A stretch of DNA of 64,000 nucleotides from Bdellovibrionales bacterium CG10_big_fil_rev_8_21_14_0_10_45_34 (GCA_002778785.1 PEZS01000010.1:62001-126000), one strand, 5' to 3'. Positions 30,268-62,120 are shown, numbered from the stretch's first letter. The notes: generated by a model not told the origin, from the sequence alone. A program made the numbers and translations.

Positions 30268-30636
30268 ATGATACAGATGCAAACACGATTAAAAGTGGCA
30301 GACAACTCGGGAGCGAAGGAAGTGATGTGCGTCAAGGTTCTAGGTGGATCTAAGAGACGCTACGCCTCGATTGGGGATATCATCATCGTTTCTGTTAAGG
30401 ATGCGCTTCCGAATTCGAAGGTTAAAAAGGGCGACGTAGCTAAGGCGGTAGTGGTAAGGTCGATTCAAAAAGTAAGACGGCCCGACGGAAGTTACATCCG
30501 TTTTGACGACAACAGCGCAGTATTGATCAAAGGCGATAAAGAGCCAATTGGAACTCGTATTTTTGGGCCCGTTGCAAGAGAGCTAAGAGCAAAACAGTTC
30601 ATTAAGATTGTTTCGCTAGCTCCTGAAGTAATTTGA
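30268..30636 (+). CDS. rplN: Ribosomal protein L14
   Basis: 122 residues, standard. It sits at the subunit interface near helix 95. [19 protein letters not shown] and the end [16 protein letters not shown] are diagnostic. The next gene is rplE; the usual rplX (L24) between them is missing, since only 11 bases separate the two. Confidence 0.98.
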
Positions 30637-30647
30637 GGAGTATCAAG

Positions 30648-31187
30648 GTGAACCGTTTAGAGGAAAAGTATCGAACAGATGTTATCGGAGAGCTTTCAAG
30701 GCAATTCTCTTTTAAGAATCCTATGCAAGTTCCTCGCTTAAATAAGATCGTCGTAAATGTCTGTGTTGGTGAAGCTACTCAAAATTCAAAGCTCATCAAT
30801 ACAACTGTTGAGGAAATTGCTAAGATTACTGGTCAAAAACCAGTAGTCACAAAGGCAAAACAGGCGATTTCGAATTTTAAATTGAGAAAAGGTATGCCCA
30901 TTGGTTGTTGTGTAACTCTTCGAAACGAACGTATGTGGGCGTTTATGGATAGATTGGTCTCGGTAGCCTTGCCTCGTGTGCGCGACTTTAAAGGGCTTCC
31001 CCCAAAAGGCTTTGATGGGCGTGGCAATTACAACATGGGACTTAAAGAACAGATCGTGTTTCCGGAAATTGACTATGACAAAGTTGATAGCGTTCGCGGA
31101 ATGAATATTACTTTTGGAACATCGGCAAAAACGGATGAAGAAGGCCGGGCCCTTTTGTCGGCTTTAGGTATGCCGTTTAGGAAGTAG
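30648..31187 (+). CDS. rplE: Ribosomal protein L5
   Basis: 179 residues, the same as E. coli. It binds 5S rRNA in the central protuberance. [36 protein letters not shown] and the end [15 protein letters not shown] are typical. GTG 30648 is chosen because GAGGAG lies 7 bases before it; the frame stays open to a TTG at 30633. rpsN, normally next, is absent. Confidence 0.97.
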
Positions 31188-31195
31188 GAGAGAGT

Positions 31196-31585
31196 ATGGA
31201 TACGATAAGTGAATTTTTAACAAGAGTCAGAAATGCTCAGGCAGCCGGGCACCCAAAGGTTGATATTCCCAGCTCGAATATGAGGTCGTCTATCGCTCAT
31301 ATACTAAAGGCTGAAGGATTTATTAGAGACTTCAAGGTTGCGAAGGATGGACGACAGGGCATGATGAGGGTTTATTTGAAGTTCGCAGCCTCCGGGCGTC
31401 CCGTCATCAACAGTCTAAAAAGAGTGAGTCGTCCTGGCCGCCGTGTGTATGTGAAATCAGACGAGATTCCAAAGGTTCAGTCAGGATTTGGTGTTACTGT
31501 TTTAAGCACAAATAAAGGGCTGGTAACGGGAGCTCAAGCGGAAAAAGAAAAGCTGGGCGGAGAGCTGCTGTTTAAGGTTTATTAA
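31196..31585 (+). CDS. rpsH: Ribosomal protein S8
   Basis: 129 residues. It binds the central domain of 16S rRNA, and in E. coli is the spc operon repressor acting on the L5 mRNA. ISEFLTRVRNAQAAGHPKVDIP, visible in parts, RPGRRVYVK and GFGVTVLSTNKG are diagnostic. It starts 8 bases after rplE. Confidence 0.98.
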   Translation: MDTISEFLTRVRNAQAAGHPKVDIPSSNMRSSIAHILKAEGFIRDFKVAKDGRQGMMRVYLKFAASGRPVINSLKRVSRPGRRVYVKSDEIPKVQSGFGVTVLSTNKGLVTGAQAEKEKLGGELLFKVY

Positions 31586-57399: not shown

Positions 57400-58221
57400 T
57401 TATATTTGCTTTTTCCAGCAATCTTTTGCAGCTGCCGAGATGAGAGTATTGAAAACTTCGGAGCGTTCTTCAGACTTTTTGATTTCTTCGTTGTCACATA
57501 TACAAGCGAAGGCCAACGCGGCCTTTCGTATTTCTGTTTGCATTATCTTTCGTGTTTGAGGGCCTGCCAACCTTGCCAATGTATTCAGAATATAAACGTA
57601 GGACACCTCGATGATTTGGGTGGTTTTATCGCTTTGGCTGGCAATGTTGTTGACCACAACACTGTTGGCCGTCGTAGTGTTGACCATAGTAAGGTTGTCT
57701 CTCAGAGCGAAATCTTCATTATCCTTATGTAATTTTGCTCTTAAAAACCAAGTTTCACCGACCTGGGTGGGCTTGTAATCAAGCACGTAATCCTGATTGC
57801 TTAAAACAGGAATCTTTTTGAAAATCCTTGCTCTGAAACTGCTGAAGTCTGGAAGAAAACCCAAATCGGCGGGCGCGTCGATATTATAGATGCTTTGATA
57901 AAGCTTAGGTGTGCTGAGAATGCGTTTTACTTTATCCATAGGCAAATCAACTTTGACCGCCTTAATTGCAAGCCCCAGGGTGTACTTTTCATTCTTGATT
58001 TGAATTTCTTCGGGTTTCACAAGAACACTTACTTGATTTTCGCTTTGATAGTGGATGTATTTTTTAGCAAATCGAGTGAAGGCCTCCTCTGTGAGAAGGC
58101 TACTTAGCTGGGTGTTCATCCACTGCGTGATTTGTTCTCTCGGTACCGCAGCCTGAGCAAACGAGCTCATTCCTAAAACGGACACGTATAGTGAGACCAT
58201 GACACGTGTTTTTGAAATCAA
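57400..58221 (-). CDS. Exported START/SRPBCC-like lipid-binding protein
   Basis: About 273 residues from TTG 58221, the best start outside the upstream gene (which ends at 58241); the frame itself opens at 58269. Signal peptide VMVSLYVSVLGMSSFAQAA. The body has the START-like layout: VKVDLPMDKVKRILSTPKLY, then LPDFSSFRARIFKKIPVLSNQDYVLDY and a long C-terminal helix (ARLAGPQTRKIMQTEIRKAA). START domains carry a single lipid or sterol in a cavity. Gene order suggests it handles the product of the two upstream enzymes in the periplasm; that is an inference. Confidence 0.6.
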   Translation of the reverse strand: MISKTRVMVSLYVSVLGMSSFAQAAVPREQITQWMNTQLSSLLTEEAFTRFAKKYIHYQSENQVSVLVKPEEIQIKNEKYTLGLAIKAVKVDLPMDKVKRILSTPKLYQSIYNIDAPADLGFLPDFSSFRARIFKKIPVLSNQDYVLDYKPTQVGETWFLRAKLHKDNEDFALRDNLTMVNTTTANSVVVNNIASQSDKTTQIIEVSYVYILNTLARLAGPQTRKIMQTEIRKAALAFACICDNEEIKKSEERSEVFNTLISAAAKDCWKKQI

Positions 58222-58240
58222 ACACTCAAGGAAAATCACT

Positions 58241-59521
58241 CTAAACTGTCGGAGCACCATATGATGCAAACTTTGTAGCCAACCTTGAAGACATCTCAGG
58301 GCTTATATCTAAGCCGTCGGCCATAGCTTCATGATTTGGCTTTTCATTCGCTCTCATAATTATCGGCGCCAATTGAGTTACGGCCTCTACTGCTTTATCA
58401 AGGTCTTTTTGAGAATGGGTTGCCATTACACTGCACCGAATGATGGAGTTCCCCCTTGGTACAGCTGGATAAAGAACTGGTGTTGTAAAAACACCTAACT
58501 TGAGCAGTTGTTGGCAGACGACCAGTGCTGTTTCGTCGTCTCCAATATAAATGGGAACAACACAGGTTTGGGTTCCCATTGTATTAAGCCCAATTTGATC
58601 GAAGCTCTGCTTTAGGTATGCGGCATTGGCTCGAACTCGTTCAACCAGCTGTGGCTCTGCCTTTAGAACCCTTAGAGCCTGAAGCGCAGCAGCTGCGCTC
58701 GCAGGTGCCAATGCGGCGGAAAACATAAAAGTGCGGGCTTTGTGACGCAACCATTCGATAACCTCTGAAGAAGCACAGATGAAGCCCCCTTGGCTAGCAA
58801 GAGATTTTGAGAATGTTCCCATGATGATGTCTGCAGGTAGGCCAAAGTTTGCTGCCGTACCCTTGCCTTTTGGACCTACAACGCCAAGCCCGTGAGCATC
58901 GTCGACGTAAGTCCTTGCATTGTACTTTTTGGCCAACTCATGAATCTTATTGTAGGGAGCTAGGCGGCCAGTCATGCTAAACACGCCATCCGTGATGATC
59001 AGCTTTCCCGCTTCAAGCGGTAGGGCTTGTAACTTTTCTTCTAAATCGGCCATGTTCAGGTGGTCGAACACGATGATTTTCGAGCGAGTCAGCTTGCATC
59101 CTTCAATGATACAAGCATGGTTCTCTGAGTCGCTGAGTATGTAATCATCTCGCCCAACGAAAGAAGAAATAGCACCTTCATTGGCCATATAGCCTGATGC
59201 GAAAACGAGAGCATCGTCGGTTCCATAAAACGACGCTAACTCCGACTCAAGTTCTTCATGAAGCGCGAGGTTTCCGTTGAGGAATCGAGAACCCGTGCAA
59301 CCCGTTCCCCAAGTTTGAAGTGCTTGGGTCGCTGCAGAAATCACTCTTGGATCGTGGGTAAGGCCCAGGTAGTTGTTGGATCCCATCATGACAAGTTCGG
59401 CACCTTGATAATGGATATTGTTTCCTTTGCTGCCGTCAATTCTTCTGAAGAACGGATAAAGATCCGCCTGTTTAAGAATTCGAACTAAGCCCAAGCCTTT
59501 TGTTTTTTCAAATAAATCCAT
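58241..59521 (-). CDS. Alpha-oxoamine synthase, probably serine palmitoyltransferase
   Basis: 426-residue PLP enzyme that condenses an amino acid with an acyl-CoA or acyl-ACP. NYLGLTHDP, GTGCTGSRFLNG, FASGYMANEG, DDAHGLGVVGPKG and the PLP lysine in GTFSKSLASQGGF are all present. Family members include KBL (glycine), BioF (alanine) and SPT (serine). The GSRFLNG and ASGYMANEG forms and the GNAT-type acyltransferase next door favour SPT, the first step of sphingolipid synthesis, but KBL-like activity cannot be excluded. ATG 59521 has GAGGA 9 bases upstream. Confidence 0.6.
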   Translation of the reverse strand: MDLFEKTKGLGLVRILKQADLYPFFRRIDGSKGNNIHYQGAELVMMGSNNYLGLTHDPRVISAATQALQTWGTGCTGSRFLNGNLALHEELESELASFYGTDDALVFASGYMANEGAISSFVGRDDYILSDSENHACIIEGCKLTRSKIIVFDHLNMADLEEKLQALPLEAGKLIITDGVFSMTGRLAPYNKIHELAKKYNARTYVDDAHGLGVVGPKGKGTAANFGLPADIIMGTFSKSLASQGGFICASSEVIEWLRHKARTFMFSAALAPASAAAALQALRVLKAEPQLVERVRANAAYLKQSFDQIGLNTMGTQTCVVPIYIGDDETALVVCQQLLKLGVFTTPVLYPAVPRGNSIIRCSVMATHSQKDLDKAVEAVTQLAPIIMRANEKPNHEAMADGLDISPEMSSRLATKFASYGAPTV

Positions 59522-59570
59522 ACAGGAGAGTCCTCGCAAAACTTCATGTTAGGGCCAATTGAGTTCAGAC

Positions 59571-60680
59571 TCAACTTGAAATTGGTTCTAGATTGGGTCC
59601 ACCTTTGTAGATTCGGTAGACCTTATTGTGCTTACCGCCCATAGCCTTTGAGAGTTCTTTCATTGGCCCATTATTAGAGAGAACCCAGCTTATTTCTGCG
59701 CTTATATATCCACACTCGTAACCTCGTAGGGCCATATCGCGTGTCAGTAAGCTTCCTATGCCGAGCCCGTGATGGCTTTTTAACACACCCAAGGCGTATC
59801 CTCGGGCCTCACTGATTTGATTTCTTTTCGTTAGAAAGTTCCAAAGAAGCCTTGGCCCTAATCCGCCGCGAGAAGTTTTTATCAGTCTGTTGTAGTTGGG
59901 AAGCATTATTAGACATCCCACTTCTTTGCCGTCCTTTATAGCAAAAGACACAACGCGAGGATCGACGAAAAATTTAAGTAGAGACACCATTTCATTGACT
60001 TGGTCTTGCAGGAATTCTTCAAAGCCCCAATTGTTAGATAGTGCGTCGTTAAAGATGCGAGCAATCCGATAAGCTTCAGCGCGCAGTTCTTTCTTATCGA
60101 GGCATCGAATGCTTACCCCGCTGCTCGTTGCAAGCTCTGAGTTTTCTCGAATGGCTTCAGAAGCGACTATCGAAGCGCCGTTTTCAACTTGATAGGTAAA
60201 TAGATCCATCGCCGGCCCTAAACCTGCAGATTTCAGTAGATGATCGTACTCTGGAGGATTGTACGACATTAAAAAGAACGGATCTCTATCAAAACCTTCA
60301 ACTAGTACCCCGACGTAAGGATCTTCAACGCGAAAATGAAAGGGACCCATCACCTCATATTCCGGAAAAGCTTTTCGCCCCGCATTTATAAGTGCCGCAC
60401 TGACGTCGGTGCGATCTGGCCGACACTCAAAGAATCCAAAATGGAGTCGCTCTAAACCATTTTTCTTGTGGATCTTAAATCCTATTCGGCCGAGCAGTCC
60501 CGTGTCGTCATAGGCGAAGAAAAGCTTCCTATTGTTTGAATCTAGATTGCCCAACATAGAGCGAACGTGAAGTTTGAGGGGATGAACATATTTCGGGTAG
60601 ACTTTTGGGTCATATATCGCTTTTGGTACATCGAGAAACTTCTTAAGCTCGCTTCGTCTTTTTACTTCGACGAGATTCAT
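59571..60680 (-). CDS. GNAT-fold acyltransferase, candidate bacterial ceramide synthase
   Basis: 369 residues. It opens NLVEVKRRSELKKFLDVP and has DPYVGVLVEGFDRDPFFL, SYNPPEYDHLL and a C-terminal GNAT signature LKSHHGLGIGSLLTRDMA, ending NKVYRIYKGG. This is the large soluble acyltransferase class that, as I recall, includes the bacterial ceramide synthase of Caulobacter. Those act on sphinganine and acyl-CoA. The 49-base gap to the SPT-like gene makes one operon. A GGGG-type ribosome site precedes ATG 60680. Function beyond acyl transfer is inference. Confidence 0.55.
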   Translation of the reverse strand: MNLVEVKRRSELKKFLDVPKAIYDPKVYPKYVHPLKLHVRSMLGNLDSNNRKLFFAYDDTGLLGRIGFKIHKKNGLERLHFGFFECRPDRTDVSAALINAGRKAFPEYEVMGPFHFRVEDPYVGVLVEGFDRDPFFLMSYNPPEYDHLLKSAGLGPAMDLFTYQVENGASIVASEAIRENSELATSSGVSIRCLDKKELRAEAYRIARIFNDALSNNWGFEEFLQDQVNEMVSLLKFFVDPRVVSFAIKDGKEVGCLIMLPNYNRLIKTSRGGLGPRLLWNFLTKRNQISEARGYALGVLKSHHGLGIGSLLTRDMALRGYECGYISAEISWVLSNNGPMKELSKAMGGKHNKVYRIYKGGPNLEPISS

Positions 60681-60906: not shown

Positions 60907-61287
60907 ATGGATTTACGACATGTCAGGTTGCTCCGCGGAATTTTTGGCAAGCTTTTGTTGAAGAAGAATATTCAACTGCAGTTACTTGTGCCTATGGCTT
61001 TGACCATCGGTTGCATGGCCCCTTTGGAAATGAGCTACGGGTCCGAAGTTAAACCCAAGCTCTACTGGAAGTGTCAAAATAAACAAGCCGTAAGAACACT
61101 GCGAATAATACAGGATCAAGAAAGCAAGGAATGGGTCCTTTTTTACACGAAAGTCGGCAAGGATTCCGAAGTCGCCCGAGGCCGCTATTATGAATTTGTC
61201 CGAAATATATTTGAAAACGTCAAAGGTAACCTGATTGAAAGCGGATGGGATTGCAGGGATATAACAGGAGCCAGCATTATCAAGTGA
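60907..61287 (+). CDS. Small exported protein of unknown function
   Basis: 126 residues. A basic N-terminus, then a hydrophobic stretch ending AL-type (LLVPMALTIGCMAPLEMSYGS), suggests export; a Cys in the stretch could serve as a lipobox. The mature 80 residues (LYWKCQNKQAVRTLRIIQDQ onward) include two cysteines that could pair. No family recognised. Its stop overlaps the GTG of the next gene. Confidence 0.5.
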   Translation: MDLRHVRLLRGIFGKLLLKKNIQLQLLVPMALTIGCMAPLEMSYGSEVKPKLYWKCQNKQAVRTLRIIQDQESKEWVLFYTKVGKDSEVARGRYYEFVRNIFENVKGNLIESGWDCRDITGASIIK

Positions 61288-62120
61288 AGCCGTCTTCGCC
61301 AAGCAAAGTCGAGAGACTGACTGTAGCGACAGTGCAAATGACGTCCGTCCCAGACGTTGTAAAAAACCTCAAGCAGATAGAATATACTCTGGCAAAGCTT
61401 AAACGCGAAAGTGTCGACTTAGTATGCTTTCCGGAAGTTTGTCATCAAATCAGGGAATCGAAACAGGAACTTTTTGTTTTTGAAGAAGAGGACGTTTGGT
61501 TTACCCGCTTGAGCGAGTTGGCCCTCGAGGGAAAGTTTGCCATTCACCTTGGGTCCGTTGCTCTAAAGCAAGGCGATCAAACATTCAATTCGTCAGTATG
61601 GGTGACTGACGAAGGTAAGATCAGCTTTCCTTATCAAAAAATTCATCTTTTTGATTTAGATATTCCTGGGCAAATTACCCTCATGGAGTCTGACGTGTTT
61701 TCCCCCGGATCAACCCCGAGTACGACCGAGGTCAAGGGTTGGCACCTAGGGCTTTCCATTTGCTACGATTTACGGTTCTCGGAGCTGTATTCAAGGTATG
61801 CCGAAAAAGAAGTTGATTTAGTCATGATACCAAGCGCTTTTACAGTGCCAACTGGCGCTGCTCACTGGGATATCTTAGTAAGAGCAAGAGCCATTGAATC
61901 TCAATGCTTTGTAGTAGCTGCCGCTCAATGTGGAAAGCATCATGCGACTCGCGCTTCTTACGGCCATAGTCTAGTTGTTGATCCCTGGGGTGAAGTCATT
62001 TGGAGAGCCTCTCAAGATCAACCTGCAGTGGGAATCTTTTCTCTGGATAGCTCGAAGATTGCAGAAGTTCGAAAACGCCTACCTATGGCTAGGCACAGAC
62101 GGCTCAATTTTAGAAACTGA
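61284..62120 (+). CDS. Nitrilase-superfamily amidase, Nit1/Nit2-like
   Basis: 278 residues from GTG 61284, overlapping the upstream stop. The Glu-Lys-Cys triad is visible: CFPEVC (Glu), YQKIHLFDLDIPG (Lys) and LSICYDLRFSELY (Cys). The IHLFD and DLRFSELY forms match the Nit1 branch, which in other organisms deaminates deaminated glutathione as a metabolite-repair enzyme. A cytoplasmic location is likely. The residues upstream of GTG 61284 in the same frame are poorly supported. Confidence 0.85.
   Translation: MKPSSPSKVERLTVATVQMTSVPDVVKNLKQIEYTLAKLKRESVDLVCFPEVCHQIRESKQELFVFEEEDVWFTRLSELALEGKFAIHLGSVALKQGDQTFNSSVWVTDEGKISFPYQKIHLFDLDIPGQITLMESDVFSPGSTPSTTEVKGWHLGLSICYDLRFSELYSRYAEKEVDLVMIPSAFTVPTGAAHWDILVRARAIESQCFVVAAAQCGKHHATRASYGHSLVVDPWGEVIWRASQDQPAVGIFSLDSSKIAEVRKRLPMARHRRLNFRN

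Follow-up and report, generated by a model that had tools for sequence, protein, structure and literature searches.

The minus strand of the window, i.e., the whole 64,000-nucleotide stretch of DNA analysed here (Bdellovibrionales bacterium CG10_big_fil_rev_8_21_14_0_10_45_34; GCA_002778785.1, PEZS01000010.1:62001-126000), harbours a conserved array of three genes (57400-60680) coding for a homologue of bacterial ceramide synthase, a serine palmitoyltransferase (SPT) and a putatively exported protein of predicted START fold, all of them proteins of known kinds. That this one operon serves both to make and to move a sphingolipid, with cerR lost and the exported START protein carrying a ceramide-type lipid, is regarded as fairly probable, and the best reading of its history is that a ceramide-synthesis operon dispensed with CerR and acquired, in translational coupling, a START-like lipid carrier of the periplasm. 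In the proposed scheme, SPT would form 3-ketosphinganine from serine and a fatty acyl thioester within the cytoplasm, and the GNAT protein would N-acylate 3-ketosphinganine or its reduced form to (keto)ceramide. Canonical cerR being presumably lost, the ketone would be reduced by another enzyme or kept, and the helix-grip cavity of the START protein would take the ceramide-type lipid through the periplasm, with the outer membrane as its probable destination.

Organization and conservation of the gene array

Three closely spaced minus-strand genes had been proposed at this position in the initial annotation, and the open reading frames are indeed present, separated by gaps of 49 and approximately 1 bp. 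The first gene (59571-60680, minus strand) encodes a tandem-GNAT N-acyltransferase of 369 aa, CerS/YghO-like and a candidate ceramide synthase. It is followed by the gene of the PLP-dependent alpha-oxoamine synthase SPT (58241-59521, minus strand; frame open over 58241-59539, start ATG at 59521) and by that of the START-fold protein (57400-58239, minus strand; frame open over 57400-58269), for which GTG at 58239 or TTG at 58221 is the likely start. None of the terminator-like hairpins listed lies within the 49-bp gap between GNAT stop and SPT ATG (59522-59570). The GTG start of the START-like gene is located about 1 bp past the SPT stop, and in four relatives the corresponding start overlaps the SPT stop or lies 1 bp beyond it, which makes translational coupling of the START-like gene to SPT likely.

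The three genes occur in identical order and strand in genomes G004, G007, G012 and G018 (in the latter the START-like gene is truncated by the contig end), with identities to the window's proteins of 48-55 % (GNAT), 61-64 % (SPT) and 23-35 % (START-like); the array is therefore not a product of chance. Named copies of these loci (L103, L104, L106, L107) come from Bdellovibrionota and Bdellovibrionia MAGs and, for the arrangement of G141, from a record titled Oligoflexia. In G141, GNAT reads as two ORFs and the START-like gene resides on a separate contig, unlinked to SPT. The two overlapping ORFs of the G141 GNAT (L035, 4566-5733) reflect either a frameshift or faulty assembly of this low-coverage MAG. 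Divergent to the operon lie the genes of a nitrilase-superfamily protein and of a small secreted one (60907-62120), both kept at this position in four relatives. The nitrilase gene (61245-62120, plus strand; PF00795, E 1e-49) retains its place in G004, G007, G012 and G018 and is probably not a member of the operon.

Serine palmitoyltransferase

The product of the second gene matches PF00155 (E 5e-59), and its best NCBIfam model is that of SPT (NF047600, 458 bits). Since it scores under every NCBIfam cut-off, SPT's included (640 bits), one might consider a KBL- or BioF-type synthase and hence an operon of threonine or biotin metabolism. A canonical Bdellovibrionota SPT (locus L122) also remains under the NF047600 cut-off (482 vs 640 bits), so that this model looks too narrow to decide. 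The best PDB match is the SPT of Sphingobacterium multivorum (363 bits), as compared to at most 297 bits for BioF/KBL-type entries. In a tree comprising SPTs, KBL, BioF, HemA (ALAS) and other AOS proteins, the window's synthase groups with Bdellovibrionota SPTs in the SPT clade (support of 82/98 for the full set of rows and of 96/93 once long branches were removed), apart from KBL, BioF and ALAS, which upholds its original description as an enzyme of SPT type. The AU test rejected a forced grouping of the window's synthase clade with KBL marginally (p 0.04), which leaves the KBL/BioF interpretation some room.

Against that interpretation stand, besides the tree, the PLP motif GTFSKS, which is characteristic of SPT (PMC10196870), and the active-site residues. 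Compared to the Sphingobacterium SPT, for which roles of the residues contacting PLP or serine were taken from the same study, the window's protein retains the serine-site residues bearing on SPT identity (Asn52, Gly80, Ser81, Phe83, His138, Ser185, Thr241, Ser243 and Met271) as well as Tyr54, Asp210, His213 and Lys244; Gly80, Ser81 and Ser243 are replaced by Ser, Val and Gly, respectively, in E. coli KBL. As the CerS-like acyltransferase is moreover its partner phylum-wide, a role in threonine or biotin metabolism appears scarcely credible. Assignment of the gene as SPT is thus well supported by sequence comparison, and its substrates would be serine and a fatty acyl thioester.

Ceramide synthase-like N-acyltransferase

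The AlphaFold (AF2) model of the first protein is a tandem GNAT (VIA Z 18.5 to 7q3a), with N-myristoyltransferases also among its structural matches. Full-length similarity to E. coli YghO (26 % over 376 aa, E 1e-31) and an hhalign probability of 99.8 % against YghO/CerS relate it to the bacterial ceramide synthases, YghO being the counterpart of Caulobacter CC_1154 (CerS) (PMC9386255). In the GNAT tree, the root of which is uncertain, the window's protein belongs to a derived clade (100/100) on a long branch, sister to the canonical CerS group (94/75). The supposed resemblance to ceramide synthase hence persists in the homology over the full length and in the phylum-wide pairing with SPT, with the tree placing the protein apparently beside rather than within the canonical ceramide synthase clade. 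Assignment as a tandem-GNAT homologue of bacterial ceramide synthase is well supported, and the enzyme would accordingly be expected to N-acylate (keto)sphinganine.

The GNAT family is present in 163 of 368 genomes of the phylum (at 1e-10) and usually adjoins an SPT in the sampled loci. The canonical Bdellovibrionota operon, present in Bacteriovoracaceae-like and f14 genomes, has the order SPT-GNAT-CerR and in many cases a gene for a fatty-acid hydroxylase next to it. Six sampled loci of this type (L116, L117, L122, L123, L124, L130) have GNAT followed by a CerR-like epimerase gene (PF01370), the product of which yields an hhalign probability of 99.8 % against the E. coli protein encoded at the cerR position. 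GNAT and CerR (both at 1e-40) occur together in 113 genomes, which are not independent, so that a Fisher value represents no clean probability. The window's proteins are homologous to those of the canonical operon (SPT 43-47 %, GNAT 28-32 %) and share the adjacency of the two genes. The arrangements differ in that CerR follows GNAT in the canonical operon, whereas in the window's clade GNAT precedes SPT and the START-like gene follows it.

The hydroxylase genes (PF04116) near SPT-GNAT-CerR in many Bacteriovoracaceae-like genomes (e.g., L122 4137-4844, L123 5143-5757, L116 3230-3817 and L121 4836-5429 near ceramide loci) may serve hydroxylation of the ceramide acyl chain. No such hydroxylase was found in the window's genome, and among the six genomes with the START-like gene it was detected solely in G018.

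Protein of predicted START fold

The third protein yielded no significant match to Pfam (no family at E 0.1), NCBIfam or, by phmmer and family profile, PDB sequences. Lacking a match to the START profile, it is filed here under the START fold rather than the Pfam START sequence family. Its AF2 model (pLDDT 79.9, pTM 0.76) displays the order helix-strand-strand-helix-helix-five strands-long helix, which is the START order, and Foldseek retrieved START domains with E values down to 8e-6. The START domain of human CERT was matched with VIA Z 15.4 (rmsd 4.1 over 197 residues, 13 % identity), followed by the Xanthomonas START protein 3qsz (14.8), STARD4 (14.6) and STARD5 (14.3). The proposed START fold is thereby borne out at the level of a predicted helix-grip structure. 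The ceramide-bound START domain of CERT is one of the leading structural matches, yet its first rank was rejected as evidence for the ligand and is suggestive only, since the scores of CERT, STARD4, STARD5 and the Xanthomonas protein tie within about 1 Z unit.

The N-terminus is signal-like (ISKTRVMVSLYVSVLGMSSFAQA followed by AVP, with the cleavage site placed between them by inspection), and a hydrophobic N-terminal stretch was recognized by hydropathy in all six members of the family. The secretion claimed in the initial annotation is retained on these grounds as a prediction, i.e., the protein is probably exported. For Caulobacter, the cytoplasm has been shown to be the site of action of both SPT and CerS (PMC11087976). 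Being presumably exported and encoded on the same transcript as the enzymes, the product of which must reach the periplasm, the START-fold protein would be well placed to carry that product onward and is considered a candidate carrier of the operon's lipid.

Among the 368 phylum genomes, the START-like family co-occurs exclusively with this SPT subclade: it was found in the six genomes possessing the latter, plus one marginal match. That match, in G312 (4e-4; weak and partial), was not counted, as it concerns a secreted protein encoded on a contig other than that of the G312 GNAT. In five of the six family genomes the START-like gene is located directly 3' of SPT, overlapping it or within about 1 bp. 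One could argue that the gene is functionally unrelated to its neighbours, binding some other hydrophobic ligand or lipids of prey or host, and is linked to them by shared descent. The unlinked gene in G141 and the fast evolution of the START-like sequence (23-35 % identity) agree with this notion, and conservation of the nitrilase and other neighbouring genes in the same genomes indicates that some of the synteny is inherited. However, the START-like gene accompanies the SPT subclade in all six genomes, even where unlinked, is elsewhere among the 368 represented by a single marginal match, and appears tightly coupled to SPT wherever linked. An unrelated function is accordingly judged very unlikely.

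Absence of a detectable CerR ortholog

No CerR ortholog was found in the six START-type genomes, where best matches were mostly partial and reached 67-84 bits; in the window's genome, the best match is partial with 67.6 bits, and none was obtained at 1e-40. For comparison, CerR orthologs in four control genomes scored 225-512 bits and paralogs there 98-114 bits. Four genomes of a sister lineage (L105, L108, L109, L127) likewise have no detectable ortholog (best 75-116 bits, approximately at paralog level). The statement that no CerR ortholog was found refers to these ten genomes (six START-type and four sister), in which all candidates were scored. Loss of CerR as a unique trait of the START clade was rejected, as 20 other GNAT-positive genomes, some of them incomplete, likewise yielded no CerR at 1e-40 in a search that scored about five candidates per genome. 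The failure to find a CerR ortholog in the six genomes counts against a complete known ceramide pathway (SPT, CerS and CerR) in them, and with CerR not detectable in the window's genome the product may be ceramide, ketoceramide or another lipid. Reduction of the ketone may fall to an unlinked, non-homologous enzyme or may not take place.

In the four sister genomes, and in these alone, an unusual zinc alcohol dehydrogenase (PF08240/PF00107; approximately 410 aa) with an N-terminal extension is encoded between GNAT and SPT (L105 5964-7205, L108 8036-9295, L109 1237-2469, L127 4973-6214) and represents a candidate non-homologous replacement of CerR, acting as ketosphinganine or ketoceramide reductase. 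The SPT-zinc alcohol dehydrogenase-GNAT loci contain the closest relatives of the window's SPT (55-62 %) and GNAT (41-48 %) and share with it the missing CerR ortholog. They differ from it in having the dehydrogenase beside SPT and no START-like gene, the window's operon showing the reverse. A dehydrogenase of this type was rejected as reductase of the window's genome: the best match there, about 70 kb from the operon, is a generic ADH (26-28 % over partial length) and not an ortholog.

Rather than acting as a long-range carrier, the START-like protein could expose membrane-bound ketoceramide to an enzyme of the periplasm, either a reductase or one acting on the head group, or extract it for that enzyme, and thereby help to offset the loss of CerR. 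Such a role would fit the restriction of the START-like family to genomes without a detected CerR ortholog, and also the periplasmic location of CerR in Caulobacter (PMC11087976), by which an exported partner at the reduction step would be rightly placed. Yet a START-like protein is no necessary consequence of losing CerR, given that the CerR-less sister lineage has the zinc alcohol dehydrogenase and none of the former, nor is any reductase candidate linked to the operon; a presenting function is hence viewed as rather unlikely.

Failure to find CerR would also be compatible with SPT and GNAT making a different, unreduced aminolipid (e.g., an N-acyl aminoketone, or a 1-deoxy type derived from alanine or glycine) that is then handled by the START-like protein. 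SPT and GNAT of the subclade diverged together from the canonical forms, and alanine and glycine are also used, albeit inefficiently, by the S. multivorum SPT (PMC10196870). Retention of the serine-contacting residues speaks against this possibility, which is considered unlikely.

Relation to known systems

The cluster of Caulobacter and E. coli B (aasR-cerR-acpR-spt plus cerS/yghO) likewise combines SPT with an N-acyltransferase of the CerS/YghO family, but cerS is located in a separate operon, whereas spt and GNAT share one operon in the window. In addition, the window's operon is without acpR and aasR, has no detected cerR and contains the exported START-like gene. The cerS gene has been stated to reside always in an operon other than that of the de novo genes (PMC11324152), a rule from which the window's operon departs. 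By description, the SPT of the Bacteriovorax stolpii/Bacteroidota type belongs to the same SPT subgroup (PMC9386255), and B. stolpii produces a sphingophosphonolipid (PMC6148460); the window's SPT differs in forming a separate subclade in genomes without detectable CerR. The order of acylation and reduction is debated, and both the CerR-less lineage and its sister with an unrelated dehydrogenase bear on this question.

How bacterial sphingolipids travel from the inner to the outer membrane has been described as not known, with Lpt-like parts being proposed for Caulobacter (PMC11324152). The latter, LptC2/F2/G2 together with a flippase, resemble the present case as proposed sphingolipid export parts encoded in a ceramide gene cluster; they constitute Lpt-bridge or ABC-type machinery, in contrast to the soluble START-fold carrier candidate of the window. 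The operon thus supplies a small and specific candidate for a sphingolipid carrier with the predicted fold of the eukaryotic ceramide-transfer domain. Compared to human CERT (STARD11), the fold is predicted to be the same, whereas the window's protein is bacterial, apparently exported and devoid of CERT's other parts. That it amounts to a bacterial counterpart of CERT, i.e., a soluble exported START protein, translationally coupled with SPT and ceramide synthase, that would shuttle (keto)ceramide through the periplasm in a CerR-less pathway, is a proposal made tentatively and with less than even confidence. In the open-access literature searched, neither a START-type periplasmic carrier of bacterial ceramide nor the combination of SPT, CerS-like GNAT and START in one operon of a single, CerR-less Bdellovibrionota lineage was found.

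Further observations

Downstream of the operon in G007, genes for an MMPL transporter, a YceI-like protein, an FAD enzyme and a type III polyketide synthase are located on the opposite strand (L032, 7534-12717) and possibly constitute another lipid pathway. In the ribosomal spc operon of the window (30268-31585), the L14 gene is directly followed by that of L5 and the latter by that of S8, with neither L24 nor S14 genes in between. An L24-like gene is located beside that of L28 (56292-56549), near the sphingolipid operon.
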